NCBI RefSeq assembly: GCF_000189635.1
Contig: NW_002476481.1
Coordinates: 806,001 to 870,000, forward strand
Direction: 5' to 3'
DNA from: Tetrahymena thermophila SB210
Lineage: Eukaryota > Ciliophora > Oligohymenophorea > Hymenostomatida > Tetrahymenidae
DNA length: 64,000 bases
Under the pieces are notes generated by a model. That model made no database searches, was not told where the DNA came from, and saw nothing but the letters and a program-made list of their open reading frames with translations. Below are positions 38,603 to 64,000 of this stretch, one piece after another. Every line of letters starts with the position of its first letter. The first letter of the stretch is position 1. The translations under genes were made by a program, and so were the position numbers.

Positions 38603-41600
38603 ATGAAACTAAAAAAATAAATAGATTTTATTGTCTTTCTCCTGAAAATTTTTACAATTCTTCAACCTATTGAAAGTTAGACATCTCCGTGTGACCCTTA
38701 AAAAAATTCATGCTGTGACTAATCTTGCTTTAACTGTTCACAAAATTAAATTTCTTAATGCTTGGCTTGTAATTCAAATTACTTCTACTTAAATATCTAA
38801 TATCAATGCTTGAAGACATGTCCTTAAGGAACTTACTTAGATTAGAATTCTAATCAATGCATCGCATGTGCTAGCTAATATTGTAACCAGTGTTCCAGCA
38901 ATTAATGTTTCTAATGCAAAGATGGCTTTTATAAAGACTCAAATGATCCTGTAAGTATATTTTAACAAAAAGAAATCTATTTAAACAAACGAATTATTTA
39001 AATCAGCAAAATTGCATATCTCAATGTAGCTAGCTTGGGCAGATTCAAGATGAAGAAGGTTAATGCAATTATGGTTGTGACAACGATTAGATATACAATA
39101 CCGATTACTAATCATTTAGCTGTTAAGTTAAAATTTAATGTCCCCAAATATAGTAAATACCTTAAATTTAAAATTAGAATAATATTGTTTCGTCTTTGCT
39201 TGATAAAACAATGAGTAATAAATAACTTATTCTTGTTTTTATCATATTCATTTAAATACAAATAAAAAATAATTAATAGCTATATTGACTCTAATAGATG
39301 TTTCAGGAAATGTAGTTTAATATAGTTATCCACAACTGCAAATACAATCAGGATATTTACTTAACATAACTTCTTACTAAGTAAAACTAACTTACTCTCT
39401 TTTTTTAAAATTTGATATTAAAATCAATTTATTAATCAGCAAAATGTTAATTCAAATTATTCAAATCAAAAATGAATTTTTTCAAAATAACTATTAATTT
39501 TAGGTATTTATTTTTGTTATTATCATCATTTTTTATAAGTTATTTGGGGTAGGGACAGGGGTGATCATAAGTGGGAATGGAATTTATTTTCAATGAAATG
39601 AAAATTATCAGAGAATAGCAATACTATAAATCCTACTCCCACCTATGATCATCCCCTCCCCTCACTTCCCTCACTCTTCTTCACCAAATTTTTTTATTTT
39701 TATGCAAAATAAACTGCATTTTTTTATTCGATTTTATAGTTTAAATATAATATTTTCCATTTTAATGTGAAGAAATAATTAAGTATGCTTTCTTTTAACT
39801 CAAAATTAATAAATTTTTTCTTAAACTGCAAACAAACTTATATTTTTTTACTAATTTTATTAAATATTCATTTTTATAGTTTATAAACATTAACAAAGTC
39901 TTTATAAACAAAAAATATTTCGAAATTAAATAAACTATTTATTTGTTTTATTTTATTTTTTAAAATTGTTATAACCCATAAAAAAAGTAATTATCAGAAA
40001 GAATATTTTGAAAAATAAACTGAAATGATCATACATAATTAACCAATTTATAAAAATTAAAATAATTTATTATTTAATAAAATTAAAATATTTTAGGTTG
40101 TAGATTGCTAATATTAGAATTAGATAGAACTATCTAAGGATATAGTAACATGCTTGCTGCAGCCTTTAAATCTTCTCAAATTTTATAATGTAAATGGGAC
40201 AATAATCTCGCAATCTTTTCTTATGTCCTAAAATAACACTTAAAACACAGGAACTTTTATCCAAAGTTTTTATAAAGGAAACGATTGGAATTTTATAATG
40301 GCATAAACCGGTAGTTATGAAATAGACCTCTTGTTTTACTCGAACTTAACCTATTTTAAAATAGATACAAGCCCAACGAATTAAATTCAGCTATTTTAAA
40401 TACAATAATACAGCAATCAAACTTCATTTTAGTCTTTTTGTTTGAATTTTACTAGCTAATCAATTACTTTTTACTAGGTTTCTCCTTACTAAAAGGTGCC
40501 TGCTTACAGTTCATCTATCATCGATCCAACAACAAAGCTAATTTAACTAAATCCTCTGTATTATTGGATTCTGTATACTTCAACGCAGGTTAACCTTCTG
40601 TACTTTAACCAAAATTTTAATACTATTACTGAGTTACAAGTAACCAAATTAAACAACTTGATATATTCAATTTTTTAGATTCCCTAAAATAATGTAATTT
40701 TTTAAAATTTAAATAAGTATTATTAAAATTAGCAATTATATTTTTAATAATAGTTAATTGTTATTGTTACAAGAAATAATACATAAAGTAGTCTATCGTT
40801 CAATTTATACAGCTTTGAACAATCAACCAGCCAAATATTACCTTCTTAGCCAAACTTCAATAACCAGATAAGCAATATTAATTAAGTTTATGCTATTAAC
40901 AGCTTGTTAATTATATGTACTACAAATAATATAGGATACTATTAATTTTCTTCTGGATACTCTTAATTGCAATTAGCTGGGTACCTATAATAATCAAATC
41001 CAGCTCTATGTGCCTAATCTATTTTCAGTGTGAAGAATATTAACTCTGAAGTACATTTTTGGCAAACTATTTAGAAAAACTTTATTGTAAATACATTCAA
41101 TTCTAATACTAATTAAAAAAATGTATATTTCGTTCCTCAGAATGCAGTGACTGCATAGGCATAGTCTAAATTCACTACAAGAAACGCATACTTTAATCTA
41201 CTTATTGAGTTTCCAGAGATTCAAAGAATTTGTGAAATTAAGCAATATGGGTTAGCTTATATTTATGACATTATTTCAAAGAAAATAATAAACTAAATAA
41301 GATTATGGTATCAAATTAATGAGCTGCCTACATAAATTCTATTTAACTATTAGATTTTACCAGATGGTACATACTTATTTACTGGTTTTGAAATGTATAT
41401 CTTTACAATCAAGATAATTAACTTAAAGACATTTGAAATAATATACTCACAGACCTTCCCAGAAATAAATATACAGCTCAGCAATATCAACTATGTTTAA
41501 AATCCACTCTACTATCCAAATTCTGATTCTATAATTGTAGTACTTTAATACTATAAATAGCTTGCCGACACTTAGAAAAACTATAATTTCCTATCTTTTA

Positions 41601-44600
41601 CTAGGAATACCGGTAATTTTATTAACTAAAATAATTTATTTTCAATTAAAATTTCAAATTATCAAGGATAAAACAGCAGCTCTAACAGGTATTAATTTGT
41701 TAAAAGCTTCTAAATTTATGGCTTCAACTACATCTAATCTGTTTCTGTAGAATACTTAATCTTATTTAACCTCACTGCTACTCAAAAATACACAGCCAAT
41801 TTTTACAATTTGCAAGGGACTAAAGTAAAAAATTTATATCAAGTATTCAATTAAAATATTTTTTTAAAATAGGTTTAAACTTCACCAAATTATTTACTTA
41901 TAGATCCAAACCGATAAGCGTAAATAAATGAGCAAACAAAGTAAGCACTAATATTTAGCTACTTTGGTATTTATGTATATAATTTAACAACTCTTAATTA
42001 TGTTATTTAATCTTTCAGTTGTGCAGGAAGCTTTTTTTTCGCACCTACATTTAAATATTATTATACGTAATCAGTCTGCCAAACTTATCAAGATGGAGTT
42101 TTTACTTACCCAAATAACACTTTAATAAGCGTAAATTTAAATAATTTATTGTTTATACTTGATATTTATTTATTTTTATATTAAAGTAAGGAGTTTCACC
42201 TAAAAATAAGTTTGTATATATTTACAAATCTTTTTACAATGGCAACTATTTAATGGTAAAGACTTCATCATCTAGTCTGATCTATTATGATAACATTAGA
42301 TAGCAAATGTTTGCTTAAACCACATAATATGGATCAAATAATGGTGGAATGATAGAATAAAACGAAGTTTTATTCTTTAACAGTTAAGCTGTTACCCACT
42401 ATGACTAAAATATGCTCAATTTGATATATTTAGAAGTAATTTATTTACCTTAATTGGTCAAAATTATTTGTGATAAATTCTTTCTTTCTTTACAGTTTGA
42501 AAATAGAAATAAATATTAAAAATAAAGAATTAAAACTATTTTTATATTTTTATTAATAGGATAGTGTTATCAACTTACCAAATATTCTTCAAACGCTATT
42601 TTTAAGATACAACTATGTGTAATCTTCAATAAATAATTTGATTTAAGTTAAAAAGGTTCAATAAATAAAATTGTAAGTCACAAAATCTTCATCTAATCAA
42701 CCTTTTTTTATAAGCTTTATCAGTGAACTTAACTATGTTGTTGAGATACTTCCTTAATCAATAAATATTTATAATGCCTTGAATAATTAACTTATTTATG
42801 CCATAATTCCTTAATATACAATTGAAACATATTTCACTATTTTTCCATATGATAATTTTTGGACATAAGAAATATTTACCAGAAGTATTCTTTATTACTA
42901 ACCAAGTAATTTAATAGTTATTGTCTATTTCAGAAACTTATTTTGTATTGATGCCTCAACGTTTCAAATAGTAAAATTTACTTATTTAATCTTCATACTT
43001 AAACTTATTTTTTTAAGCTATACTAATACAAGTATATTCTAGCGAATGCTTCGTTTAAAAGTATTATTGTTGATTGGGATAGAGGATATCTTATTTCTAC
43101 TAATTTGGATTAAGACTGCATATTAGATATGAAAGTAAATATTTATTTATTTAATTAAATTATTACTATTATATTTCTAACAATTTATAAAAAGACAGTA
43201 TAACGAACTTGCTTCAAAGATAATCCCCTTTATTAAGGACTACCAGATAAAGCATTTACCGATTATGTGCAATTTCTATTTATTAATAAATAAACAAATT
43301 AATTGATTATATGTCAGATAATTTCTATAAGAGTATTTGCTCTTGACAGCTTACGTTATGTGAAGTCAATTTATGATACACTTTTAGCTGGAGCCTAATA
43401 TTTTATGAATCCAAACTATAATTATTTGATTTACAGTAATGGTTATAATTACGTGTTTACTATGCTTGATTTAAATACTATGCAAAAGACTGTATTATCA
43501 TTGCCACCTCCAAGTACAGACACCTAAAGCATAAATTATAGAGTATATTTATTTATTTTTTAATCTTTAAATTATTTGTTTTTATTAAATCTTATTTTTA
43601 TTTTAAAAATAGTTTTTTTTCTTAGATGATAAGCAGAGTTACATATACTTAAATTCTAACTATCTTTTCATTTATGTATATGACTAAAGGACTCATTAAC
43701 TTATAAATAAAATACCATTAAGTGTCAACTTTTTCCCTTATTCAGATGTAATAGTTGACCAATCTAATAAGTTCATATTTTTATTTGACACTAACAACTG
43801 TGTTAACAAGTATTCTTACTCTGAAAATAAGCTTTTGTAACAATTCTAAGTAAATATAATTTTTCATAATTTTATACTATCACAAAGAATTCTGTTTTTT
43901 TAAAAGATCAAATTAATTTATTTATTATTTAGCTAAATTAAACAGATGCTTAAGCTTATTATAAGTATATGATTTGGGACAGTTACAAGCAGAGACTAAT
44001 TTTGTCTTCTAATACAACTGTTTATCTAATTAGTACAAGAAAAAATTTAATTGAGCTTAATCAAGTTGATACTTTTGTGACTGAACTGAGACTTTTTAAA
44101 AGTAGAAATATTATATAATACTCTACTTATTTACAGAATGTCCTCCTTGATTATGATTATCTCCTCAATGATAACCAAGACTTTTTCCCAAGTTAAATAA
44201 ATCCCAGATTTTTCTAAGTGAACAACTTTACATTTTTCTAATTAAATGATGTAAACTCCTAAGCTAATCTGTTCATCAACCAGACAATAACTTCGACATG
44301 GATCAGGAATAATTTGAACTCTGGGTACATCCGTATCGTAGAGAATGACCTTTCATAATTATTGGTTTATGCAATTTTTGATAATGAAATAGTCATTTTA
44401 GACTTGAGCACTGCAATTCTAATTTAGATCGATCAGGTTTTCTTGTCTCAGAATATTATAAATATACTTTTCTAAAATAATGACCTAATAATTTTACTTT
44501 CTTAATCACAATAACTGTTATAGCTTCAAAAAAGACAAAGATCAATTTAAGTAAATGAAGTGATTATTCTAAAACAAGGTCTTGCTTAATATTTTTTTGC

Positions 44601-47600
44601 AAATAATTTAACACAGCTTTTATTTACAGATTTTTCTGGAAATTAATAAAACATAAATATTGTGAACTTCATCTTTGATTCAAATAACAATATTAAATTT
44701 GTGTCTCAGACTTAAATTATGATGCCTTCTAGAATACTAAGTATTTAACAATTAAATAGTTCACAAGTAGTTATTTTAATGAGCAACTTGATTAAAGTTT
44801 ACGATTACATATAAGTATCAGAACTCGCAACAGTTGGTTTAGAGTTTAATGTCTCCTTTGGTAACATTTAAATTGACTATATTTACTAGAGAATATTCTT
44901 GCAAAACTAGCTTGTGGGAAGCTAAATCTATGATTTTAATTTAAAAAAATAAGCAAATTCATTTATAAACTCTTTCTCAACTAATTTGTATTTTGATACT
45001 AATTTTATTTATTCAGTGGTTTTTCACTCTGCTAACATTTATTTCAGATAAGATCTAAAGCTCCTATATAATTTTAGACATTTCGATACAACCTTAAAAT
45101 TAAAGAATATTAGTTATTTGGGTGTTGGGTACTTCTTTTTAGTTGAGTTTATCTCCAAATTTTCTATTTATGAGTTCTCTCCTTTTGTTCCTCTTCCAAC
45201 AGAAAAAGCCTTTGTGTAAATTAATTAGTATACAATTATAAATTTCCAGTTCTTGAAACTTTTAAGCTCTGAAGTAAATAGCAACAAATACTAGTTAAAT
45301 GTAATAGGATTGACTTCAGAAGGAATGTTTACATATAAAATTGATTTAGATATATACAGCTAGTAACAAACCTAAACTTGTTCTTTGAATTATTAATTAT
45401 AGAATTATAATTATCAAGATGATACATCTTTCAACTCAATGAGCTCTTATTTAAATAGCTAATAAAGAAAGCTAAATGGAATTACAATAAATATTTCTAA
45501 AAACTAAAACATACACATCCCATAGCTTTAACAAAATATTTTGAATCCTATTTTCTAACTGATTATAGCACCAAAAGAAGTAAACACGGTTGTTTATGTA
45601 CAAGATTCATTTAGGTAACAATAAGGGATATCTTTTATCTCAATAAAAAATTTAGAAATTCAAGTTTCGCCTCAAAATTATAATAATTACATTTAAAATA
45701 ACACAATCCCAACAAATCTCGTAATAAATAGCAAAATTTTCCCTGATATAAAATAGATTTTGCTTGAAAACATCATAATAAATGAAGCTAATTTGCAGAT
45801 TAATAACATTTAAAGTGTAGTAATTTAAAAAATTGATTTATAGCATTTTTCAAATTAAACCATGCCTACCCTAACTTAGCTTAATATAACAAACGTGAAT
45901 TTAGTTATAATCACAGAAATAAATTTAATTTCATGTAAATTTAATTTAGGAAATCCTTTAATAATTCTTCAAAATATTCAAAATCTACAAATCAATAATA
46001 TAACTGTATCTAACTGTGCTTGTAATGGACTAGATTAGCTTCTCTTTATACATTAAGTATAAAACTTGACTTTGTTGAATATTTTCATATCCTAAACTAA
46101 CTTTACTTAACAATCTTCTTTTACTATCTCCTCTTCCTAATTTATTTATATAGGCTTATTAAAAATGCAATAAATTCAATATAATAATGATAACTTACCT
46201 AAATATAGATCTTTATAAACTGAGTAGAGTAGTGTCAAAATTTTAAAAATATTTTATTTTTCAAATAATATTAACGTAAGTTTCAGTAACATAACAGTGA
46301 CTTAATTTAATATCAACTCTTTGAACGAGTTTGCTATTTTTAATTTCGAGCTTATCTAAGGAGTTCTTAGTATAAACTAAACAAATATTTAAGATACCTA
46401 AATAATTAACAAACAAATTGGAACTGTCTTTTCATATTCTGGAGTTTACAGCAGCTAACTTTCATAGGTATTTTTATAAGGAATAAACAATATGAGATAT
46501 TTAGTCCTTTAGTCATATCAAATTTCAGATGCACAATTATTTTAATGCAAAAATATAAAAATTACAAATTTAACAGTAACTAGCAGCTAAATTGCATTTT
46601 AATCTTTTATTTAAATTGTATCTGCTAATATCCTTTTAGACAATATTCAAGCAACAAAAATATATTTTTAAACAACAGATTAATTTTCATAAAATGTTCC
46701 ATTCATTACACTACTTGCTGCTAATTCACTGACACTTTAGAATTCATATTTTAGTACTATGGCTAACCTAACAAGTAGCTCTGTATTAATATAAAATTCA
46801 TTAAATGTAAATATTAAAAATACAAATTTTCTGTAACTAAGTACAAATGGAACTTCACCAGCTTTAGCAATTTTCGATTCAACAAATATTAATATATAAG
46901 CTAATACTGTATCTCAGTGTTAATCTTAAATGGATTCTGGAGCAATTTAAATTAATAACTGTTAAAAAGTAGTATTTAAGAATAATACTTTATAGAGCAG
47001 CTAAACTAAAAATGGAAACGGAGGAGCTCTTTATGTGTTAAATAGTTAAATTGATAGTTTAGACGATAATTAATTTATCTAGAATTCTGCATTATTAGGA
47101 TCAGGAGGAGCAATCTATTGTCAGAACACAAACCTTAATACATTGAATTCAAACACATTTGTTAAGAATTAGGCAATTTAAGGGTCAGGCGGCGCAGTTT
47201 AGCTAAATAATTGTGATGTTTTACAAATTTAAGGCAATTCATTTACCTAAAATTAAGCATTTATTGGAGGAGCAATAAGATACATTAATCTATAGCCATT
47301 AGCCATAATGCAGGGTGGAGTTAATTTTTTGAAAAAAGCTAATTCGTTTTACAAAAATAATGCAGTTTCATATGGAATGAATGTTGGCTCGTATCCTAAA
47401 ATTTTAGATTAGAAAAATTATTATGATAAAAACTAAATAAATTCATAACGTGTTGTGTTGAATGTATAAAGCGGATACAAGTCATCAACTCCCATTTTGA
47501 TGAGGTTTATAGATGAAGAAATGAGAGAGATGTCCTTCATTAACTTGTCTCTTTAACCATTAATAAGCTAAGATATTTTATAAGAAATGTCACTTTATAT

Positions 47601-50053
47601 TCTTTAAGCTGAAAGCGATAGCATTGGCTTATTGGGTGATTTAAAGCAGGCGTATTCTTATAAAAGTTTTGCATTTATATTTGACTTGTCATATTCATAT
47701 TAACCTTCATAAAGTGCAATACTAAATATAAAATCAGCATAGCTTCTTCCATAATTTTAACCAAATAGTTAAAAGGTAATACAATAATAATTTAACGTTC
47801 CAATTACAATTTAATTCAGAAAATGCTAAGTTGGAGAAATCATTTAAAAATCTGGAAATTACACTTTGTGCTAAACTTGTGAATAAGGTAAACAAAAGAA
47901 ATATCTTTTGATTAATTTATATCAACAAATTTATTTTTTTAAATAATTCTTCTTAATTTTTAAAATTAAAATAATAAATAAATTTTTCAACTTAAAAAAA
48001 AAATTTTTTTTTTCCATTCAAAATTAAAAAATTGTTTGATTTAATTTACTAACTAACTAAAATAATAATATAAAAATAAAAAATGTTTTTAATTCATAAT
48101 TAATTTTCAACATATTTAATTAACCTCAATTTAAAAATAATTAATTAATTCTAAATAAGGTACTTACAGCATAGTTGATCCATATTCTGAAACTTAAATA
48201 AATTGTAAGAGATGCCCTATTGGTTCAAAATCTTGCTATAGTTCTTAAATACAAGTTTAAAATGGATACTGGAGAATAGATAATATGTCTGATACAATTA
48301 TTTAATGCCAATAATCTGAATTCTGCAAACCAGAAGATTCTTCATAAAAAAATGGGTGCATTTAAGGTCATATTGGCCCAATTTGTTAAGAATGTGATGT
48401 TAGGGGTTAAGTATGGGGTTCTTAGTATTCAAAGACTAGTTAAGATTGTAGTAATTGCAACTAATTTTTATCCCCAGTAAATATTATTCTAATGCTACTC
48501 ATTTTAGGTTTTATTTTTATACAAATATTTATGAAAATTCAAAATGAAATAGTTCTAATTAGAAAATATATTATGGCTAAATATTTATCAAAATTAAGAT
48601 TTATTTCTCCTAACATTTAAAGAATTTAAACATCTTAAGCTTCTCTGGTTAAAATATTACTCAACTACTTTTAATTTTTAATGATAGTTAACAGCTTAAA
48701 TATAACTCTACCTGCTTTTTTTACTTTTTTTAATCTAACAGGTGGAGATACTTCTTAACTTACAATCTATTCTATGGATTGCTTACTATTTTCGAAAGAT
48801 ATAAATCTACCTAACTATATTGTTCGCTTATTGTGGATTAACTTTTAACCTTTAGCCTTGTTTATTTTAATAGAATTATTAAATTAACTTACTTCGTAAA
48901 AAAATATTGCTCATTAACAGAGATAAACTCTATACACAAATCTGATTGTTATATATATATTTTTCTAACCGTCTGTTGTTAAGGTCATAAGTTAATCACT
49001 TTCTTGTCAGCAAATTGGAGAACAAAATTATATCTCTTTAGATTTGAATTATGCTTGCTTAGATAGTTAGCATATCTCATATATACTGTAGTTTATATTA
49101 CCTCTGGGAGTTATTTGGATAATTTTGATTCCTCTCATGTTGTTTTATAGGATACGAATTTACAAGCCAAAAATGCATACAATCAAAATACTATTCAGAT
49201 ATGGATATCTTTATTAAGTAATATTTATTTTTTTTATAATACAAATCCATAAATTTTCTTAATATCATTTTAAATTTTGAATAGATTTATAATAATTCAT
49301 AAATCAAAATATTTTTTAGTTAAATTAACTCTTATTAAAAATATAAATTAGGAATACGAGTTTGATAAATATTATTGGGACTTAGCGAGAATATTAATTC
49401 GTTCAATAGCAATTATTGTAATTAATGTTTTTAACTTTTAGGTACTTTTTAAAGGTATGGTTTTGTTTGGTGTCATGTTTTTCTATCTTATTCTCTAGAA
49501 AAAATTAAAGCCATTCATTTTGTAAAAATTTAATGATCTTGAGCAATAATCATCTTTTTTGGTTATAATAACAATTTATTTGCTATTTATTGGAACTCTA
49601 TCAAATAATGATATTATATCTTATATAGTCACCATACTAATAGGAATTTTGAATATCGCTTTTATATTAAAGATGCTTTAGCTCATTCTGATAAAGCCTA
49701 TTCCAGTTGAAGAAAAAGATAGAAATAAATTATAAAACATTCTTGTGCATCTAAAATAAAGATTGCCTATATTGTTCGTATGGGTTAAAATGGGTAATCA
49801 AAATTCTAGTCGCCCTTTTAAGAATTGGAAAAAGGTTTCACTGATATATTAAAACTTAAAAAAACAATTTAATTCAGAAGATAATAATTTGTAAATGAAA
49901 AGATAAATGAGCTTTTCAAGTAATGCTATTTCATTAGCTGTATCTAAAATGTTTAAAAACCAAGATTTAATATAAAAGACATAAAGGACATTAAGAACAT
50001 AAAGTGTGTATAGAGAAAAGAAAGAATTCAAATTAATTCTTTAAGCCAAATGA
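38603..50053 (+). CDS. giant secreted-head, multi-span membrane protein
   Basis: Function unknown; architecture of a cell-surface receptor-like protein. Exon 1 (38603-38950) encodes a signal peptide (MKLKKQIDFIVFLLKIFTIL) and a Cys-rich furin/EGF-like head (SCFNCSQNQISQCLACNSNY, CLKTCPQGTYL). Exon 2 (39007-39214) continues it, joined through phase 0 and phase 1 introns. A long extracellular region follows through many exons, most of it unassignable. Around 46.8-47.3 kb come Gly-rich repeats typical of right-handed beta-helix/POMP-type proteins (NGNGGALYVLNS, LGSGGAIYCQN, GSGGAVQLNN). A Cys-rich stalk precedes the membrane (TQINCKRCPIGSKSC, IGPICQECDV). About eight or nine hydrophobic spans start at PVNIILMLLILGFIFIQIF. 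A basic cytoplasmic tail ends at TGA 50051-50053. The paralogue starting at 58691 shares exon structure. I treat it as one gene because the paralogue pattern supports that, but a split is not excluded. Confidence 0.75.
39546..39669. repeat. GC-rich imperfect inverted repeat inside an intron
   Basis: Left arm 39546-39580 (core ggggtgatcataagtggga) and right arm 39631-39669, whose complement has the core ggggatgatcataggtggg. Arms are about 35-39 bp with a 50-bp AT-rich loop. It lies in the roughly 0.7-kb intron between about 39390 and 40095 of the giant gene. Composition is far richer in G/C than the surroundings, consistent with a small inserted element or a foldback structure. Confidence 0.75.
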
Positions 50054-50189
50054 GTATCTAAAATACTTTTAACTAAATAATATATATATTTACTTATTAT
50101 ATCAAAAAGCAACAGCAAAAATAATATTTATTCGATAAAAATACTTATTAATTTTTAAATATTATTTATAAAACAAAGAGATATTTGAT

Positions 50190-51095
50190 ATGAAAGCAAC
50201 TTAGCACAAATAAGATTTATAAGTTATATTTTAATTTTTAAAAATTAAATTAAATAAAATTTTAAGTTTTTTGTTAAAAATTTATATTTTTTTTTAATTT
50301 AAAATATTATTTAAATTATTTTTTTTGAATTGTTTCTATATTTTTTATTGAAAAATAATTAAAATAACGTTTTTGATCTTTTTTGATTTAGAATTTTTCA
50401 GCTAGCTACTTTGAAATTAATTTAAAGTATATTTATTTAATAGTATATTATTTCAATAAAAATGTAGATAGATTATTTTAAAAATTAATTTAGATTATTT
50501 AATAAAAAAAAAATATGAAAGCAACTTAGCACATATAAGATATTTATAAGTTATATTTTAATTTTTAAATTTAAAATATAATTTAAATAGTTATTTTTTT
50601 TTTTGAATTGTTTCTATATTTTTAATAAATTGAATAATATTCAATTAAACTAATTTTTTTGATTTTATTTTATTTAAACATTTTTCAGCTAGCTACTTTG
50701 AAATTAATTTAAAGTTTATATTTATTTAATAATATATTTTTTCAATAAAAATGTAGAGAAATTATTTTAAAAATTAATTTAGATTATTTAATAAAAAAAA
50801 TATTTGATATAATAAATAGCAACTTAGCACAAATAAGATTTAATAATTTAATTTTCAAAATTAAGTTAAATAAAATTTTATGTTTTTTGTTAAATATTTT
50901 ATTTTATTTTTTTGAAATGTATCTATATTTTTTACTGATAAACAATTAAACTAATGTTTTTGATCTCATTTTGATTAAATGTTTTTCAGCTACTTTGAAA
51001 TTAATTTAAAGCTTAAATTTAATAATATATTATCCCAATAAAAATGTAGATAGATTATTTTAAAAATTAATTTAGATCATTTAAGAAAAATAGTT
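50190..51095. repeat. tandem repeat, three copies of about 300-325 bp
   Basis: The marker gcaacttagcac occurs at 50196, 50521 and 50819. Each copy continues with ataagat..ttta, a ttgttt/ttgaattgtttctatattttt block, tttttcagctagctactttg and aaaaatgtagatagattatt. The array fills the space between the giant gene's stop and the LRR gene's start, so it forms that LRR gene's upstream region. Confidence 0.9.
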
Positions 51096-51230
51096 TCAAA
51101 ATTATATTTTCATATTAGTCAATTAAAAAGATATAGTCCATCTATTATTTAATATATAAACATTTATATTTAATTTATTTATTAATATTTATTTTTAATA
51201 AATCAAAACTTTTAAATCAATAAAATAAAA

Positions 51231-52841
51231 ATGAAATAAAACAACAGCGAAAAAGAATATTCATAAGTAAGTGAAAATAACCAAATTGAAGAGAAAAGGT
51301 TTAAAACATGGGAGTATTTTTAAAAATAATTGCATGAAAGTTAGACATGCATAAATCATTTAGAGATAAATTTAAGTTACTAAAATTTAACTTAAACTAA
51401 ACATAAATAAATTGTTGATTACATATAATAATAATAAGATTTAAGTTGTTTGTCTTTTTTAATAAATGAAAAATAGAAAAAATTGAGATTATTAAATGCA
51501 AAACTTTTAGCTCAGATAGAAACAAATGTTACATATTCACCTTCTCTTTTAATATCAGACTCTTTAAAAAAATTAAAGAATTTATCATAATTATAATTAG
51601 GTATGAACTCTAACAATGTTAATAATGAAGGAATCATAGCTATTATATCTTCTATTGAAAATTAATATTAACTTACATCATTTTCTCTTGAATTAGAAAA
51701 TAATTAAATTGATTAGATAGGATTTAAAGCAATTACTAGTGCATTATTCAAATTGAAAAATCTAAATTTATTAAAACTCAACTTAAATAATAATAAGATA
51801 TTAGATGAATCTTTAAAAGATCTGGGAGAATCTTTGGTTGAGTTAAAAATGCTCAACAATTTGAATTTACATCTAAATTGCAAGCATAGATCTGATTATG
51901 GAATACTTTTCTTAGGCTAGGCATTAGAAAAAATGTCAAATTTAACTCATTTAGAATTAGATATTCACCAAAAAATTTATTAAAAGCTTGAAGATGGGCT
52001 TGTAAAATTGGCTTAAAGCCTAAAATATCTTGTTAATCTTTAATAAATTATACTTACTTTTTAAGATTTTTCTATATCAGAAATAGTGGCATAGAATCTA
52101 GGTACTTCATTTTCATATATGAATAATCTAACTGATGTTACATTAGGCCTTTAAAATTGTGAACTTAGTGATAAATCTGCTGAATTAACTTAATCTGGAT
52201 TAAATTAATTATAGTTTTTAAGAAAATTATATTTAAATCTTAGTAAAAATTAAATAGGTGATTCTTAGCTCAATCAATTTTAATTTATGAAAAATTTATC
52301 AAAACTAGAAAAATGCACTTTAAAGTTAGGTAGCTCCTTCATTTCAAATATAGGGGCTTTAAGCTTAGCAAATACCATACAAAATTTTACATAACTATAA
52401 ACTTTAGACTTGAATTTATCTAAATCAAAGATTGATAATGAAGGTATTTCCATGATTTCTAAGGCTTTGGAAAAACTAGAGAGCATTAATTAATTATCTC
52501 TTGATTTTGATTTTATTGAAGTAGAAGATTCTTCATTAAAATACCTCAGCTTTAGTATAGAAAAGATGAAAAAATTGTAAAAATTATCTTTAGTTCTTAT
52601 ATCTAGCAAAATAAGTGATGAATCAGTAATTTAATTAGGCCAATCTATTAAAAATCTCATAAATTTATAAAAAGTTATGCTTTTTATATTCTCTTCTAAG
52701 ACTACAAATTTAAGCAACAACCTTTTAATGTAATCATATTCTAAACTGAAGAATCTTAACACTTTAATAACTACTCCTAAATTATGGCAGAGATGTTCTT
52801 ATTTAAAATTAAAAAGGTTAGTCATTATTTAATTTTTGTGA
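51231..52841 (+). CDS. intronless leucine-rich-repeat protein
   Basis: Function unknown. One uninterrupted frame of 536 residues from ATG 51231 to TGA 52839-52841, with dozens of TAA/TAG read as Gln and no internal TGA. The N-terminal 100 residues are charged and Gln-rich (MKQNNSEKEYSQVSENNQ). From about residue 120 on come LRRs with the ciliate-style spacing: LKKLKNLSQLQLGMN, LFKLKNLNLLKLNLNNNKI, MLNNLNLHLNCK, LQFLRKLYLNLSKNQIGD, QLQTLDLNLSKSKIDNEGI and INQLSLDFDF. There is no signal peptide or membrane span, so it is probably cytosolic. It lies 1.2 kb downstream of the giant membrane gene in the same direction, and a damaged copy of its 3' end follows the damaged copy of that gene. The pair was therefore duplicated together. 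Confidence 0.85.
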
Positions 52842-53312
52842 TATATTTATTATTGGCTTTATTCATTTAGAGTATAGCAATTTGCTTGCTGTTTTAAAAA
52901 TGCTTAATCACTGTTAATAAATAAATAATAAATTAAATATTTTTTATTTTGAAATAAATTTTTAATAGAATGATTAATAGTTTTTATTAATTATGATTAA
53001 TTATTTTTTTTATAGATTTTAAAAAGCCAATTATTTAGTATTTATTCTATCTATTTATCAAGATTATTTACATTGAACTTATTAGTGTTAAATATATATC
53101 ATTTCTAATAGAATTAAATTATAAAAGAAAGTATAGTGTATATAGTTTTAATTTAACTGATTTTTTATTTAAATAAATTTAAACTTTTATGTTTTTTAAA
53201 TTATTATGTAGACTATTCAAAAATAGATAGAAGAAACAAATTTCAATAAAAGAGAATAGATAGAATTCAAATCAGAAATTGTAAAAAATCAAAAAGGCTC
53301 ATAATTTTTAAA
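52842..53312. repeat. LRR-gene 3' flank plus one copy of the ~350-bp repeat
   Basis: The flank after the LRR stop (ttattattggctttattcat, tatagcaatttgc) is repeated after the LRR fragment at about 56836. It is followed by one copy of the roughly 350-bp unit whose marker tagaattcaaatcagaaa begins at 53261. This unit abuts the N-terminal scrap of the broken giant-gene copy. Confidence 0.8.
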
Positions 53313-53450
53313 TTGTTGATTTTAATTTAACCAATTTTAAGCTAGTCTTAATGTGATCCTATAAAAAAATAATTTCTGTAACTAATCCAGTCTTAGTTTT
53401 TCTGAAAACTAAATTTATGAATGTAAATTATGTAGTTTAATTAAAAAATA
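53313..53450 (+). pseudogene. N-terminal scrap of a giant membrane-protein paralogue
   Basis: It aligns closely with the start of the intact paralogue at 58691, including signal-peptide residues (FKLLILIQPILSQSQCDP). The initiating atgttcatc is replaced by ggctcata, so no start codon exists. One extra A in the run after the CDP codons shifts the frame. The similarity ends at about 53450, within the Cys-rich head. Confidence 0.8.
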
Positions 53451-54215
53451 GAATTATTAATATATATAATCCTGTTAATTATTTTATTATAGATTTTAAA
53501 AAGAGCATTATATATTTAATTTATTCTATCTTTTTGTTAATAAATAATAAAAGAAATATTTATTATTTTGAAATAAATTTATAATAGAATCATTAATAGT
53601 TATAATTATGATTAATTATTTTTTTATAGATTTTAAAAAGCTCATAATATAGTTTTATCCTAAATCTTATAATAACTATGAACAAAATTAAATTGAGTTG
53701 TTTTTTTCATAAATTGGGGAGATCATAGCAGGGACTCATTGATTTTTTAATGAAAATATATATTTATGAAATTGATGCTAGTCACATGAAGGTTAGAAAA
53801 AAATTAGAATAACAAAATAATAATTAGATACAAATGGGTTTTAGAATATTATTTATTGGAAAAATATATTATTTCATTATTCAATTTGAATAAAAGTTTC
53901 TTTTAGACTGATACTATTTTAGAGGAGGGGTTAAATTACTAAGTGGAATAGAATATTTACAAAATTCAATGTACATAACTTATTTATTATCTTAAAAAAT
54001 TTTATCATTAATTAAAATCATACCTTACCTTTCCCCCTAGTTTTTTGAAAAAATAATGATATTTTTTTACATCAACATTTTAAGGGTACAGAGATCTTTA
54101 ATTAAAAGAAATAGTATAATTATTTTAAGGAATATTAAAAAGAAAAAATTTCAAATAAACAATATAAAAATTTTTGAAAACTGATTGATTTTATTATTAT
54201 ATTTATGAAAAAAAG
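53451..54215. other. junction region between pseudogene fragments
   Basis: It starts with part of the ~350-bp repeat (tatagattttaaaaag at about 53490 and again at 53625). About 550 bases follow that match nothing else I recognise here, with small G-rich and C-rich stretches (attggggagatcatagcaggg, acctttccccctag). The whole central part of the giant gene, about 9 kb in the intact copy, is missing from this place. Confidence 0.6.
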
Positions 54216-56173
54216 GTTTCTACAGTATTACAGATCCATACTCTGTTTAAAATATTAATTGTAAGAGATGTCCTGTTGGCTCAATCGCATGTTAAAGTTC
54301 TTAAATATAAGTTTAAAATGGATTTTGGAGATATGGCAATCTTTCAGATGTAATAATTTAATGTTAGTAATCTTAATTTTGCCAACCAGAAGACCCTTAA
54401 TCGAAAAACGGATGCTAATAGGGGCATATTGGACTAATTTGTTATGAATGCTATGTTAATTGCGAAATATGGAGTACTTAGTACTCTATGACCAATTAAG
54501 AGTGTAATGACTGCGTATATTTTTATTCTGCATTGAATATTATTTTAATATTTCTGATTTTTGCTTCTATTTTAATTCAAATCTATAGTAAAATTAATAA
54601 TGAAATGATTCTGATAAGAAAATATATCATGGCTAAATATTTATCAAAATTAAGAATTGTTTCTCCTAACCTTTAAAGAACCTAAACTTCTTAATCTTCT
54701 TTGACTAAAATATTAATTAATTACTTTTAGTTTCTAGCAATTGTTAACAGTCTAAACATAAAATTGCCAACTTATTTTACGTTTTTTAACTTAAGTGGAG
54801 GAGATACCTCTTAAATTACAATCTATTCAATTGATTGTTTACTATTTTCTAAAAATTTAGCAGTTCCAAATTATATAGTCCGCTTGTTATGGATCAACTT
54901 TTAACCAATTGCCTTATTTATAATTATTTAGCTTATAAACTATATTTTCTAAAAAAATAATTCTCACTCTTCGAGTTAGGCTGTTTACACAAACATGATT
55001 AATATATACTTATTTTTTAAGCCTTGTGTTGTTAAAGTTATAACCTAATCTCTATCATGCTAGGATATTGGTTTATAATCTTACATATCTTCTGATTTAA
55101 ATTATACATGCTTAGACAGAGAGCATAGGAAGTACATATACACCTGTATTTTACCTTTAGGATTAATTTGGATAGTTTTAATTCCTCTCTTTTTATTTGC
55201 AAGAATAAGAAATTATAAATAAAAAATGCATACCATTAAAACACTCTTCAGATACAGTTATCTATATCAATTATTTTTATTAAATAAAAACAAATATAAT
55301 ATCTTAAGTAATTTAAATAAAAGATTTAAAAAATCTAAATAAATCAACTACTTTATTTTAATTAATCCTTTTTTAATATTTTATTTTAAAGGAATATGTG
55401 GATGATAAATATTACTGGGATTTGGCAAGATTAATTATTCGTTCTACAGGAATTATCGCTATTAATATTTTTAACTTTTAAATTATTTACAAGGGATGGT
55501 TTTATTTGGAGTTTTCTTCTTATTTCTATTCCTTTAGAAAAAATTAAAGCCATTTATTTTATAAAAATATAATAATCTTGAGCAGGAATCTATTTTCTTA
55601 GTAGTAATAACTATTTATTTGCTTTTTGTTAGAAGTCTCTCAAAAAACTATATAATTTCTTACATAGTCACTTTCATTATAGGAATTTTAAACTTTTAGT
55701 TTGTTTTAAAAATGTTGTAGCTAATATTAATATAGTCTATTCCAGTAGAAGAAAAAGATAGAAATATATTTTAAAAACTTATTTTCAAGATAAAATAAAA
55801 ATTTCCTTCTGATTTTTAATGGATTAAAATTGGGTATTCAAGTAATAGTATTCCTTTTAAAAACTAGAAAAAAGTTTCAGAAGTGATGAAAACAATTAAA
55901 GAAGAGTTAAATTAAGATAAATTTGGTTTTAAGTAGAAAATAAGTCTTAGCACTGCAAGAAATAGAATTTCATTAGGAATGAGTTAAAAATTAAAAAACC
56001 ATAAAAAATTAATAACGTAAAATAGTAAAGGTTCATAAGTCTCTCATATTACCACAGTAATTAAATTTTATTTTAATAAAATATACAATTTTATATTTTA
56101 AAAACAAACTTTAGAAATCATAAACGAAAGAAAAATCAAAGTTTTAGATATATTATTTCAAATGAAATGTTGA
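54216..56173 (+). pseudogene. C-terminal half of a giant membrane-protein paralogue, frameshifted
   Basis: It corresponds to about 48160-50053 of the intact gene: Cys-rich stalk (INCKRCPVGSIACQS, IGLICYEC), membrane spans and tail. Most of the frame is intact and the changes are conservative (IRKYIMAKYLSKLRIVSPN versus ...LRFISPN; FNLSGGDTSQITIYS). That implies either recent decay or a formerly functional copy. A one-base deletion near 55494 (aaggg-atgg, where the intact gene has aaaggtatgg) shifts the frame inside a membrane span; downstream the old frame is readable again to TGA at about 56171. There is no signal peptide or start codon. Confidence 0.8.
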
Positions 56174-56399
56174 AAAGTACTATTTAGATTTGGATGTTAT
56201 TGAAAATAATTCTCAAGTAAAACCAAACTAGAATTAATAAGCTATTAATTTAATCAGTAATTTCTAGATTATAAAAAAATATAACATATTAAAGCTCATG
56301 ATTATAATAAAATAAAGTTAATTTTTTATAAGTTTGTTTGAATTTTCCTTGTAAAAAAATTATAAAAGCTAGGCCTTATAAAAAATAGAGTCAGACCAC

Positions 56400-56835
56400 A
56401 CTTTTCCAAATATATGAATTTATAAACTTTAGACTTAAATTTATCTAAGTCAAGGATTGATAATGATGGTATTTTTATGATTTCTAAGGCTTTTGAAAAA
56501 CTAGAGATCATTAATAAATAATCTCTTGATTTTGATTTTATTGAGGTAGAAGGAAGATTCTTTATTAAAATACATCAGCTTTAGTATAGAAAAGATGAAA
56601 AAATTATCTTTAGTTCATATATCTAGCAAAATAAGTGATGAATGAATCAGTAATTTAATTAGGCCAGTCTATTAAAAATTTCATAAATTTACAAAAATTA
56701 TGCTTTTTATATTTTCTTAAAAATACTTCAAATTTAAGCAAAAAGCTTCCTATATAATCTTATTAATACTTTAATAACTACATCTAAATAATGGCAGAGA
56801 TATTTTTTATTTAAAAATAAAAGGTAATTTTTGAG
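56400..56835 (+). pseudogene. 3' fragment of the intronless LRR gene
   Basis: Nearly identical to about 52393-52830 of the LRR gene (LQTLDLNLSKSRIDNDGI, INKQSLDFDFIEVE). A few-base insertion after the IEVE codons and the extra bases in agtgatgaatgaatcag create a frameshift and an in-frame TGA. Short deletions follow. Confidence 0.85.
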
Positions 56836-58690
56836 ATATTTATTATTGGCTTTATTCATATAGGGTATAGCAATTTGCTGTTTTAAAAATACTTAATCAC
56901 TGCTAATAAATAATAAACAAAATATTTTTTATCTTGAAATAAATTTATAATAGAATTATTAATAGTTATAATTATAATTAATTATCTTTTTTATAGATTA
57001 TAAAAAGCGCATTAAATATTATTTATTCTTTCTTTTTATCAAAGTTTTTTTACATTGAAATTATTAGTGTAACATATTTATCATTTCTATTAGATTTAAA
57101 TGTAAAATAAAGTATATTCAATTAATTTTAAGTAAACTGACTTTTTTATTTTTTTTTCAAAAAGAAAATTTAAACGTCTATGTTTTTTAAATTAAAACCT
57201 CTTGTTACTCAAAAATAGATAGAAGAAGCCAATTTTAACAAAAGAAAATAGGTAGAATTTAAATCAGAAACTTTTAAACAATAATAAAGGAAATATTTTT
57301 TATTTTGAAATAAATTTATAATAGAATTATTAATAGTTAAAATCATGATGAATTATTTTTTTTTAAGATTATAAAAAGTGCATTAATTAGTATTTATTTT
57401 ATCTTTTTATCAAAATTATTTTATGTTGAACTTAATAGAGTTGCATGTATATTATTTGTATTAGATTTAAATTTTGAATGGACTGTTGTCTATTAATTTT
57501 AATTTAACTGACTTTTTTATTTTTAATTTGTAATGAATATTTATTTAAACATCCATATTTTTTAAATTTGTATCTGTGTTAATCAAAAATAGATAGAAGA
57601 AACAAATTTCAACAATAGAGAATAGATAGAATTCAAATCAGAAACTTTAAATAAATAATAAAGGAAATATTTCTTATTTTGAAATAAATTTATAATAGAA
57701 TTATTAATAGTTATTATTAATTATTTTTTTTATGGATTATAAAAAGCACATTAAGTAGTGTTTAATCTATCTTTTTATCAAAATTTTTTTATATTCAATT
57801 TTTTAGTGTTACATATATATCCTTTGTATTAGATTTAAACGGAAAATAAAGTATTGTCTATTAATTTTAATTAAACTGACTTTTTCATTTTTTTTCAAAA
57901 AGAAAATTTAAAAGTCTATGTTTTTTAAATTAAAACCTCTTGTTACTCAAAAATAGATAGAAGAAGCCAATTTTAACAAAAGAGAGCGTTTAGAATTCAA
58001 ATCAGAAACTTTTAAAAAATTTAATTTAGAATTATTAATAGTAAAAATCATGATGAATTATTTTTTTTATAGATTATAAAAAGCACATTAATTAGTATTT
58101 ATTCTATCTTTTTATGAAAATTATTTTATGTTGAACATAATAGTGTTAAATGTGTATCATTTGTATTAGATTTAAATTTTTAATAGACTGTTGTCTATTA
58201 ATTTTAATTTAAATGATTTTTTATTTTTAATCTAAGTTTTTTAAATTTTTATCTTTGTTACTCAAAAATGTATTGAAGAAGCAAATTTTAACAAAAGGGA
58301 ATAGATAGAATTCAAATCAGAAATATTAAATTAATAATTAAGGAAATATTTATTATTTTGAAATCAATTTATAATAGAATTATTAATAGTTTAATTATGA
58401 TTAATTATTTTTTTTATAAATATTTGAAAAGTATTATGTAGTATTTTTTCTATCATTTTATCTTATTTATTTTATCTTGATATTATTAGTTTTACATATA
58501 TATCATTTCTATTAGATTTATATGTAAAATAATGTGAATAGTCTATTTAACTGATTTTTTTTTTCCATTAGAAAATTTAAACGTCAATGCTTTTAAAATT
58601 ATTATCTCTATTATTCAAGAATAGGAGAAACAAATTTCAACAAAAGAGAATAGATAGAATTCAAATCACAAATAGTAAAAAATACAAAAA
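56836..58690. repeat. array of five ~315-375 bp tandem repeats
   Basis: The marker tagaatt(c/t)aaatca begins at 57253, 57627, 57991, 58306 and 58655, giving spacings of 374, 364, 315 and 349. Each unit has gaaataaatttataatagaattattaatag, tttatagattataaaaagc, a ttattagtgt/ttaatagagt block, taactgactttttta and a caaaaatagatagaagaa block. Short frames inside the units shift between copies, so I do not think they are coding. The last unit abuts the start of the giant paralogue at 58691, and a sixth copy (marker 53261) abuts the broken N-terminus at 53313. Confidence 0.88.
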
Positions 58691-61600
58691 ATGTTCATCA
58701 TTTTTAAATTGTTGATTTTAATTTAACCAATTTTAAGTTAGTCTTAATGTGATCCTACAAAAAGCAATTGCTGTAACTAATCCTGTCTTAGTTGCGCTCA
58801 AAACTAAATTTCTGAATGTACATCATGTAGCTTAAATTACTTATACTTGAATGTACAATATTAATGCCTTAAGAAGTGTCCTTAAGGAACATATTTAGAT
58901 TCAAGCACTAATAATTGTTATTCATGTGTAAGCTAATATTGTAGCCAATGCTCAAGTACTCAATGCTTATAATGCTTTGACGGATTTTAAAAAGACCCTA
59001 ACGATCCTGTAAAATTTATTTTTTCTTAAAATAATCAATTAAAGCTATTATTTAAAATAGCAAAATTGTATATCTTAGTGTAGCTAAATAGGATAAATTT
59101 AAGATGATTAAAGCCAATGCAATTATGGGTGCTTCAATGATTAGATTTTCGATATCGACTACTAATCGTTTAGTTGTTAAGTAAAAGCTTAATGCCCTTA
59201 GATACAGCAAATACCTTAGTTGCAAAATTAAAACAATATTGTTTCCTCTTTGCTTGATTATACTATGAGTAATTAATGAACAATTTTCTTTATTATTTCC
59301 TTAATTTTAATATAATTACTTAAAAAGCTGCAATTACCTTAGTAGATGTTCAAGGATATGTTGTTTAATATAGCTATCCTTAGCTATAGACATAGATAGC
59401 ATTTTAACTAAATATATCTACCTACCAAGTAAAATGATTTTTTAGATTAAATTTTACAAAGAAAATTAAAATAAATTTAGATTTATAAATATTTTATTGT
59501 CATTTTAAATTCAATAAAATATTAAAATTAAATTTTCTTCAAAGTATTCCATTCAGCACTTAATTTCAGGATTAAAATTCTTCTGGTATCGCTATCTCAA
59601 GGATAGTAACCTTGGAAGTGCTTAACTAATTTAATTTTATGATTTTACATGTTTTAAAAAATTTAAATGATTTTTACACAATATAAATATGAAATTAGGC
59701 ATACAAAATTTAAAAAAAAATAAAATATTTTATAAATCAAAAATATGGTTCTTATTTTTTAGGACTATTATCCTACATTTAAAGTATCTTAAGCATATAG
59801 ATTTTACTTTTGATAATTTTGATGACTATTATAATAATAATAATATAAATAAATAATTATAATATTACTATTATGATAATTAAAATCTTTGGATAATACC
59901 AAGAATTGAAATAAAAATAATTATTATTATTTTTGCTATTCTTAAATCATTTTTTTTATTTTTAAATTTAATTAATTTTTATCAGGGATTTAAATCATTT
60001 ATATATTTTCATCTTGTCAGAATTTTACTTTTAATTTCAAAAAAAATCGGTCAATATCTCTCTTTCTGATATATCATCTCATCCCTAGTATTAATATTTA
60101 ATATAAATCAAATAAACTAATTTTAATTTAATTATTATAGATTTATATGTGTTGAATTTTGATAATTAATTATTTTATCTTATAATTCACAATCATATTA
60201 TCTGAATTAATTTTTATTTTTATTGGTTTAAATTGATTATGTTTTAAATATAATTGTTTACCCATTTGTCTTTTTCTTTTAAATCTAAATAATTAATCAT
60301 CTTAGTACGAAATATTTTAATTTCATTTTACTTTACTGATTATTATGACAAAAATTATTTAAAATATTCGATTTTTACATCTAATTTTTTCATTTAAAAC
60401 TTAATAAACAATAAAGGTTGTAGATTGCTAATATTAAAATTAGTTGGAATTAGCAAATAATATAGTCACTTGCTTATTATAACCTCTTAACTTACTCAAG
60501 TTTTACAACTCAAATGGAACAACTATCTTACAATCTTTTCTTACTTACAATAATACAAAAAATACTGGAAACTTTATATAAAGCTTTTAGAAAGGAAATG
60601 ATTGGAATTTAATATTATCATAAAGTTCTAATTATGAAATAGACCTATTATCTTACAAAAATTCAACTTACTTTATGATAGATGTCAGTTCTACTGCTTA
60701 AATTTCTCTGTTTTAAGTGAAATAATACACTAATTAAGATTAATATTAGTTTTTGAGTCTAAATCTGATTAGCTAATCTATAACTTATTATTAGATTTCT
60801 CCTTTTCAAAAAGTATCAGTCTACAATTCATCAAGCATAGACTCAACAGCCAGTTTAGTTCAACTAAATTCGTTATATTATTGGACTTTATACACTTCCT
60901 CCTAGATTAATTTACTTTACTTTAATTATGGTCAGATGTCTCTTAACCTACTGCAAACCATTTAAATGACTAGCTTTATTTATACCATTTATTTGATTCC
61001 ATAATCAGATGTAAGCTTTTAATAATATTACTTTTTAATTAAATAGTATTTTAATTTTAATAAAAAGCTAATTCTAATTGTAAGCTCTGAAACTCCTTAA
61101 AATAATTTAAAACTTAATATGTATAATTTTAACTAATAAAGTAACCAAATATAATCATCTCAAATCAAGCTCAATGGCTAAACAAGTAACACTACTCATA
61201 TATATTCTTTTGGTAGCTTATTGATTTTCTGTACTACAAATTATGTTGCGTCTTACTAATTTTCTGCTGATTATTCTTAATTAGAATTTATACAATAACT
61301 ATAACAAGTAAATCCTCAGCTTTGTGCCTCATCAATATTTAATGTGAATTACATAAACTAAGAAATACATGTTTGGTAGACTATTTAGAAAAATTTTATT
61401 TTAAATACATTCAATACAAAAAACTAGTAAAAAAGTATATTTATCATTGCACAAAATGCAGTGACTTCTTAAGTTTTATCTAAATTCACTGTAAGGGTTC
61501 CTAACATGAATTTGCTTATTGAATATCCTGAAATTTAAATGTTATTAGAGTTGAAAAGTAATGGATTAGCTTATATTCACAACACTATTTCAAAGAAAAT

Positions 61601-64000
61601 AGTGAATTAAGTAAGAATATGGTATCCAATCAGCGAGCTATCAACATAATTACTCTACAATTACAAAATTTTGCCAGACGGAACATATTTATTTACTGGC
61701 ATTGAAATGAAAACCTTTACAATTAAGATAGTTAACATGAAAACTTTAGAAATAATCTATGTGCAGTCTTTCCCTGAAATTATTGTAGCTTTGAGTCAAA
61801 TCAACTATGTATTGTAGCCATTCTATTATCCAAATTCTGGGTCTATAGTTGCTGTTATATAATACTATAAATAAATTACAGATACTTAAAAAAATTTCCT
61901 TTTCTTATTTTTTTCAAAAAGTATAGGTAAATAATTAATTATTATTTTCATATTAAATATAGTTTATTGAATAAATACTAATTAAATTTAGACTAAATTA
62001 GTGCTAACCAATATAAGTTATAGAAAAGCTTATAAAGTTTTGCTACAAATTACATTTAAACTATCTCTGTAGAATATTTAATTATTTTTTATATGACTTA
62101 AACCTCATATTACACAGCTTACTTTTACGATTTATAGGGAAGAAAAGTAAAAACCTAATTGAAAAAAAAATATATATATATTAATAATTTTAATAAATAG
62201 ATACAAACTTCTCCAAATTATAAGTAATTAGATCTAAATTTTTCAGGTAAAGAAAACTAATAAACTTAACAGGCATTAATATCTAGCTATTATGGTTTAT
62301 ATTTTTATAACTTAACAACTCTTACTTATACGGTCTACCCTTTCTAATGTGCAGCAAGTATATATTTCTCGCTAAACTTTTAATATTATTATACTCAATC
62401 TGCCTGCTCAACTTAATAGGATGGAGTTTTTACATATTCTAATAACACATTGATAAGTGTAAGCTTTCATCTTTAATTTAATTTAATTAAAATTTTTAAA
62501 ATATAAAAGTAAGGAATATAGCCAAGAAACAAGTATATATACATTTATAAATATAATGATGATAGATATTTAGTAATAGCTACAAATACACCAAATCAAC
62601 TTTTTTATGATAATGTAAGATAATAGCTATTTACAAAGCCTTCAATATATGGGGCAAACTAAGATGGAATGATAGAATAAGATGAAGTTATCTTTTTTAA
62701 CAGTTAAGCAACTACTCATTATGATTTAAATACCTTCAACTTAATTTACTCAGAAGTAATTTTTTCTATTGTTTTCTTCATTTTTTAATTGATAATTTTT
62801 GAGTTTTGAATAATTCTTCAGTCAAACACATACTGTATATTCTCAAAAAGCCAATAAAATTAATTAGCCTCTATTTTTAAAAATCACATAAAATCTTATA
62901 CCAACCGAAATACCTAAAAATTTATGTGAAAGGTAAGTTTGGTGTTTATTATGAACTATATAGAATTTAAATATTTAATAAAATTTAAATTTGTAATGTA
63001 AAATAATTGAACCTACTTAACTTTCAAAAAAATTGAAATAAAAGAATTTTTTTAATTATTTTCAAAATACTATTAAAATTATGATTAAATTTTTATGAAC
63101 ATTGTAAATATCTTAATTGATAATTTAACAAATAATTTACCCACGAAATTGAATAGAGTTTAATTGAAAACACTTAAAAATTTTTATTAAAAATTTGTAT
63201 TGAATTGTATACCTATTATTTAACTAAAATAATATTTATAGATTCTGGATTATACAATTACTAAAACATTTTTACTTTAGACATAGTTTCTGAGGTACAA
63301 CTATATTATTACTACTTTACTTAATATAGTTTAAGTAAAAAAAATAAAATAAATAACGATTTAGACAACTAAATCAATAAATAAATATTAATCTTATTTT
63401 ATTGATTTTGTTAGTGAACTAAACTTTGTAGTTGAAATACTTCCTTAATCTATTAATATTTACAATTCGTTAAATAATTAACTTTTATATTCTGTGATCC
63501 CTTAAGAAACCATAGAAACATACTTATCATCTAATGATAATTTTGCCATATAAGAATTATTTACAAGACAAATTCTTTACTATTAACCTAGTAATTTAAT
63601 TGTTGTAGTTTATTATTTAAGCTTGATTTGTATCGATGCAACAACGTTTTAAGTGGTAAATTTAATATGTTCTAGAAATATTCATATTTATTTTATTTTA
63701 TATAAGCTATATTAATACAAGTATGAGTTACCAAATCAGAGTTTCAAGGCAATTTAGTTTGATTGGAATAGAGGCTATCTTATCTCAACAAACTTAGATG
63801 AAGACTGCATCTTAGATATGAATGTAAATAATTTGTAAATTCAAATTAATTATTTTAAGATGTAAAAATAGACTATTCGAAGAACTTGCTATAAAGATAA
63901 TCCACAATATTTAGGTCTTCCTAATTACTCGTTTTTAGATTATCAATAATATCTATTTATTAATTAGTATACAAGCTAGCTAATTATTTGCCAAATGATT
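58691..64000 (+). CDS. giant membrane-protein paralogue, 5' part (runs off the window)
   Basis: Paralogue of the gene at 38603. Exon 1 (58691-59008) encodes signal peptide MFIIFKLLILIQPILSQ and the Cys-rich head (CDPTKSNCCNQSCLSC, CLKKCPQGTYLD), ending in phase 0 like its relative. Exon 2 ends at donor 59269 in phase 1, again matching. A large intron (about 59.43-60.41 kb) is followed by VVDCQYQNQLELANNIVTC and the extracellular region, with family-wide motifs (FIQSFQKGNDWNL; YYQISPFQKVSVYNSS). No damage was seen up to the window edge, so it appears functional. Its C-terminal half is outside the window. Confidence 0.8.

Follow-up and report, generated by a model that had tools for sequence, protein, structure and literature searches.

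Species-specific genes of Tetrahymena often lie in tandem, with leucine-rich repeat (LRR) and GFR domains among their top domains and with ectopic recombination involved, according to the cited passages of Xiong et al. 2019 (PMC6564038). Two other systems come close in outline, i.e. the germline mat locus of T. thermophila, an array with incomplete copies of transmembrane (TM) exons in the sections cited from Cervantes et al. 2013 (PMC3608545), and the mating-type recognition complex with its component MRC2 (PMC10901506). Here we describe a stretch of 64,000 nucleotides from Tetrahymena thermophila SB210 (contig NW_002476481.1, here C81, positions 806001-870000), referred to as the window, which carries an array of giant genes for probable surface proteins (R1, R3 and, beyond its right end, R4) together with a dead middle copy and an LRR gene. 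This array is a case of the tandem inparalogue clusters described by Xiong et al., and MRC2 and the mat locus are resembled only in architecture and outline. As a whole it is likely to have grown by unequal recombination and to be one ordinary tandem cluster within a large family of Tetrahymena surface proteins, with the LRR gene probably clipped along as a bystander. Repeated tandem copying is a common growth route for Tetrahymena gene families, and in this respect the array is ordinary.

With the clusters of Xiong et al. the array shares the genus and species, tandem duplication, ectopic recombination and the presence of cysteine-rich (GFR) and LRR families. The passages cited from that paper stress LRR genes with 90-bp exons, whereas here a giant beta-helix/TM gene has been amplified and an LRR gene with a 1.6-kb exon is the bystander. 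That gene, modelled as a single exon with no further exon sought, is one open exon of 1,611 bp including the stop (536 aa), and not a series of tandem 90-bp exons with phase-2 introns. Like the mat locus, the array has tandem surface-protein genes, cysteine-rich and TM exons, and incomplete copies. In the sections cited on the mat locus, however, the genes form head-to-head pairs, the truncated TM exons nearly all lack stops and frameshifts, and the locus is rearranged in macronuclear development, whereas the genes studied here run head-to-tail, the macronuclear genome has three open copies, and the incomplete one is of the reverse kind (TM domain kept, ectodomain lost) and disabled. MRC2, compared by architecture alone, is likewise a large membrane protein with a pectin-lyase fold and ~8 TM helices, but members of its complex measure 92-212 kDa in the cited part of the paper, as against ~360 kDa modelled for R1 and R3. 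The portion cited of a paper on ciliate G-protein-coupled receptors (GPCR; PMC9960496) has no direct bearing on this family, and among titles and abstract openings in the literature we found no paper describing this array or receptor family.

All comparisons were based on a single assembly. The genome searched comprises 101 Mb in 445 contigs; over ~100 residues in two exon stretches its telomerase gene is identical to TERT entries of T. thermophila in the PDB. Under translation table 6 (TAA and TAG encoding glutamine) the window holds 114 open reading frames of at least 150 aa, and under table 11 none. The assembly is very probably the macronuclear genome of T. thermophila. DNA self-comparison covered the window and 190 kb of C81 (756001-946000), and coordinates past 64000 continue the window numbering. 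The gene models of R1, R3, R4 and the LRR gene are computational predictions. The features of the array are as follows.

38603-50053, plus strand: R1, giant surface-protein gene model (gene models, hydrophobicity)
50274-51090, no strand assigned: 2.9 tandem copies of a ~289-bp repeat, lying behind R1 and ahead of the LRR gene (self-comparison)
51231-52841, plus strand: LRR gene (DNA and protein searches, open reading frame)
52906-53295, plus strand: 5'-flank unit belonging to the dead copy of the receptor (sequence comparison)
53296-53440, plus strand: exon-1 scrap of the dead copy (88-89% identical to R3/R4)
53441-54057, no strand assigned: scar of the internal deletion (sequence comparison)
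54058-56345, plus strand: C-terminal remnant of the dead copy (90-91% identical to R3/R4)
56419-56826, plus strand: LRR 3' scrap, homologous to 52394-52838 (sequence comparison)
56899-58690, plus strand: five tandem 5'-flank units preceding R3 (sequence comparison)
58691-64000 within the window, plus strand: R3, giant gene model, running past the window to ~70790 (gene models)
From 71629, homology to R3 ending at 83845, plus strand: R4, fourth copy, beyond the window (self-comparison)

R1, the remnant, R3 and R4 thus all lie on the plus strand within ~45 kb. The original prediction, made from the letters of the window, had read the order as giant gene, LRR gene, repeat, N-terminal scrap, C-terminal piece, LRR 3' scrap, five repeats and giant gene; self-comparison and gene models confirmed this order, and the extension past 64 kb that it proposed for further units yielded R4. 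Far above chance are the DNA matches between R1 and R3 (7,496 columns, 71.9%, 3,846 bits), between the remnant and R3 (2,300 columns, 90.5%, 3,138 bits), and between the two copies of the LRR 3' end with its flank (959 columns, 80.4%, 861 bits). Between the 3' end of the R3 homology and the start of the 5' unit of R4 lie ~380 bp.

The R1 model has 15 exons under table 6 and encodes 3,194 aa (~360 kDa), with no in-frame TGA ahead of its end; R3 is open at 3,185 aa, and R4 is open as well. Fourteen introns lie at positions common to the copies and are GT-AG in R1, R3 and R4. The layout of R1 consists of a signal-like N-terminus (by eye), a cysteine-rich region, a long ectodomain, a beta-helix, a second cysteine-rich region, 7-8 hydrophobic stretches (a count from manual grouping of overlapping hydrophobicity windows) and a tail. 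A parallel (right-handed) beta-helix, i.e. a pectin-lyase-type fold, is present in the receptor model. No Pfam family scored above its cut-off for the receptor proteins, the chlamydial PMP repeat PF02415 reaching 15.6 bits in R1 and 14.9 in R3 against a curated cut-off of 20.6. The long R1 exon had no match among PDB sequences at E ≤0.1, and the TM domain no usable match among known folds (GPCR, TRP and others), absence from that list excluding nothing. Of the label receptor-like, given to these genes earlier, what stands is its plausibility, by architecture only; a family assignment does not go with it. The idea that R4 is a pseudogene was dropped because its 1-bp differences from R3 at 73983, 76744 and 77140 all lie in short introns common to the copies.

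The middle copy is a wreck. The exon-1 scrap is missing its start codon and carries a 1-bp insertion, and the scar contains fragments of the 5'-flank unit up to ~53704 and a stretch (53662-54056) that, searched against the genome at the DNA level, matches only itself. The C-terminal remnant consists of a partial intron, an open exon (54216-55270, 1,055 bp), an intron whose donor is no longer GT, a last exon (55392-56056) and 3' flank; this last exon has a 1-bp deletion near 55495, inside conserved TM sequence. Although a C-terminal piece is present as predicted, it is no half of the gene but only the last two of 15 exons (~550 of ~3,190 codons). Its identity is 90.5% to R3, 91.1% to R4 and 73.1% to R1, so that the remnant is a sister of R3/R4 and not a copy of R1, and the broken round is no second edition of the first, as had been supposed. 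Tandem duplication, a dead middle copy and a process of birth and death, on the other hand, are supported parts of the same prediction.

The tandem repeats, predicted at ~350 bp, are the receptor's own 5' flank. Five tandem units do precede R3, but they measure ~370 bp, and each unit stops at the receptor start codon, or where that codon would be. R3 has five such units, the remnant one plus fragments, and R4 about two-thirds of one, while none was found before R1; the ~289-bp repeat behind R1 is unrelated to them in sequence. Among the units before R3, 1 and 3 (89%) and 2 and 4 (87%) are closest relatives (supports 95/94 and 100/99), so that two neighboring units were probably copied together as one block.

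The LRR gene is single-copy at the DNA level, with three matches in the genome, i.e. itself, the scrap and one match of 71 bp. Its protein is ribonuclease-inhibitor-like by PDB matches, these being to generic LRR proteins, and gave 68 matching rows in a search of the genome, the best outside the locus at 27% identity, as of distant relatives. The reading frame of the 3' scrap is broken and contains TGAs. Similarity between scrap and gene starts abruptly at 52394/56419 and extends over the LRR stop, the 3' flank and the 5'-flank unit, and this sharp left edge is what a duplication breakpoint inside the LRR gene would be expected to leave. Nothing in the R3-R4 spacer matched the LRR gene, and at the protein level no LRR match turned up in 56 kb behind R4 or in 30 kb around a paralogue on contig C267, where gene models are rough. 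Seven DNA matches of 18-63 bp (E ≤0.01, best 1e-6) in the 56 kb behind R4, 7-39 kb away, are taken as noise of AT-rich sequence.

These observations bear directly on the alternative put forward in the original prediction, in which receptor, LRR gene and repeat were duplicated as a whole unit and the second LRR gene was later cut down to its 3' end. Such a history would explain why receptor, LRR sequence and 5'-flank unit follow one another twice and why the homology takes in the LRR stop and 3' flank, but it is hard to square with the sharp 5' edge of the scrap, a single-copy LRR gene, the lack of LRR matches in the R3-R4 spacer and of LRR protein matches behind R4 or near the C267 paralogue, and a remnant that groups with R3/R4 instead of R1. 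The absence of any LRR fragment after the third receptor copy had been named beforehand as its refutation, and none was found after R3. We consider whole-unit duplication unlikely. The parts of the block show comparable distances (0.12 for the LRR scrap, 0.06-0.13 for the LRR flank, 0.08-0.20 for receptor introns and 3' flanks, 0.17-0.25 for 5' flanks), and the simplest account is one duplicated block with its left breakpoint in the LRR gene. The right-hand homology edges nearly coincide (56345, 70973 and 83845), in keeping with recurrent recombination at a single junction. The array offers a well-resolved case of such growth, in which a breakpoint inside an unrelated neighbor can leave a scrap resembling a duplicated partner gene.

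Growth by unequal recombination would then have run as follows. An old split parts R1 from the R3/R4 lineage (R1-R3 dS, the synonymous distance, is >1, i.e. saturated and therefore unreliable). Judging from edges and distances, a later burst would have yielded the dead copy, R3 and R4 (dS 0.12-0.18), through tandem duplication of a block that started inside the LRR gene, took in the 5' flank and the receptor, and stopped ~180 bp beyond the receptor end. Since the block began inside the LRR gene, one LRR 3' tail would have been carried along and the LRR gene never duplicated whole. In the first copy, everything from within exon 1 to the end of exon 13 is gone, as are the start codon and a splice donor, and the 1-bp insertion and the 1-bp deletion have been added; the 5' flank preceding R3 has grown to five units, partly as a pair. 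These changes would have come after the burst. R1, R3 and R4 are probably functional, each encoding a protein of ~360 kDa whose large ectodomain is anchored by 7-8 TM helices and probably binds or modifies surface glycans or proteins, under purifying selection on average.

The selection estimates were obtained with an R1 frame in which a few intron codons were read through, with gapped codons dropped and TGA codons omitted (0-4 per comparison). Between R3 and R4, dN was 0.043 (the non-synonymous distance) and dS 0.175 over 3,186 codon pairs, giving dN/dS 0.25, and 0.247 when recomputed on the final exon models; across the seven domains the ratio was 0.17-0.31. The predicted diversifying selection is thus not borne out, dN/dS >1 being found in none of the exposed domains of this pair, as a pairwise average. 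Purifying selection dominates on average.

Several observations weigh against this picture. In 100-codon windows of R3-R4, four of 62 (three from the ectodomain and one close to the tail) have dN/dS 1.0-1.65, each on 3-4 synonymous changes, and in 30-codon windows 24 of 211 have a non-synonymous proportion above the synonymous one (pN > pS), with 0-1 synonymous changes each; none of the high windows is convincing, though some fast sites are possible. The last exon of R4 stays open beyond the homology as far as 84074; a small 3' intron, if assumed, would end R4 at the end point of R3. For the R3-R4 spacer without an LRR scrap, a later loss must be assumed or the events ordered otherwise. Gene conversion between copies is not claimed (R3-R4 windowed identity 83-97%; switch test P 0.076; longest-run P 0.47, 0.32, 0.035 and 0.24), yet the remnant and R4 may have undergone a short conversion, given the P of 0.035, uncorrected and from one of four tests. 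Lastly, over 552 codons (10 changed codons differing at more than one base) the remnant has 37 non-synonymous and 16 synonymous private changes, R3 and R4 together 36 and 37 (one-sided P 0.017). Against ~3.8:1 sites, 37:16 falls short of full neutrality, and for that reason the remnant may have been functional during part of its history.

The same deficit, together with the open 1,055-bp exon, could be taken to mean that the remnant still works, as a short gene encoding a TM-only protein. A raised non-synonymous share, the deletion within conserved TM sequence of the last exon, and the missing splice donor and start codon make this highly improbable. An assembly artefact, in which real copies were fused into a chimaera or a repeat was collapsed to give the middle copy, is very unlikely as well: long repeats of ~90% identity can assemble poorly, and only one assembly was at hand, but 114 of 2,309 columns are private to the remnant, which also has disabling changes of its own, and ~395 bp at the scar are without another match when the genome is searched at the DNA level. 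Growth of a tandem cluster by unequal recombination, with one copy since disabled, accounts for the locus better than either.

A genome search with the R1 TM exon gave at least 122 matching rows, merging to at least 115 places; these are lower bounds, as 115 of 732 first-look candidates were scored, and the places are counted as matches to the TM exon. Among the matches listed, 64 of the 115 places fall into 23 same-strand clusters (steps ≤25 kb), and 35 of the 41 steps within clusters are 10-20 kb, that at the remnant being 6.1 kb. The present array is therefore one cluster of a large family. The TM exon places point to a family of beta-helix/TM surface proteins, and the architecture of the copies studied matches that of one component of the mating-type recognition complex. 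By analogy, the clusters might even constitute a large family of MRC2-like adhesion or recognition proteins, with TM-only partial copies serving, like truncated copies of the mat locus, as recombination substrates through which a common membrane anchor acquires new ectodomains in the germline or developing soma; we rate this as a very long shot. One other cluster, on C71, also has a short step: its TM-domain matches at 274758-275804 and 278879-279733 are separated by 4.1 kb, the second contains a TGA, and they perhaps represent another gutted copy.

Other duplications and genes were found around the array. Upstream, window positions 6472-8067 and 9353-11056 form a direct duplication of ~1.6 kb, ~77% identical, in low-GC sequence, and 29032-29434 and 29677-30103 one of ~400 bp, 71% identical. 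On the minus strand, 12086-13426 and 19633-21261 hold an LRR gene of another type (PF12799) and a protein kinase gene (PF00069). Further downstream, beyond the receptor array, C81:915787-921034 (109787-115034 in window numbering) consists of 5 kb of dense direct repeats, 70-82% alike.
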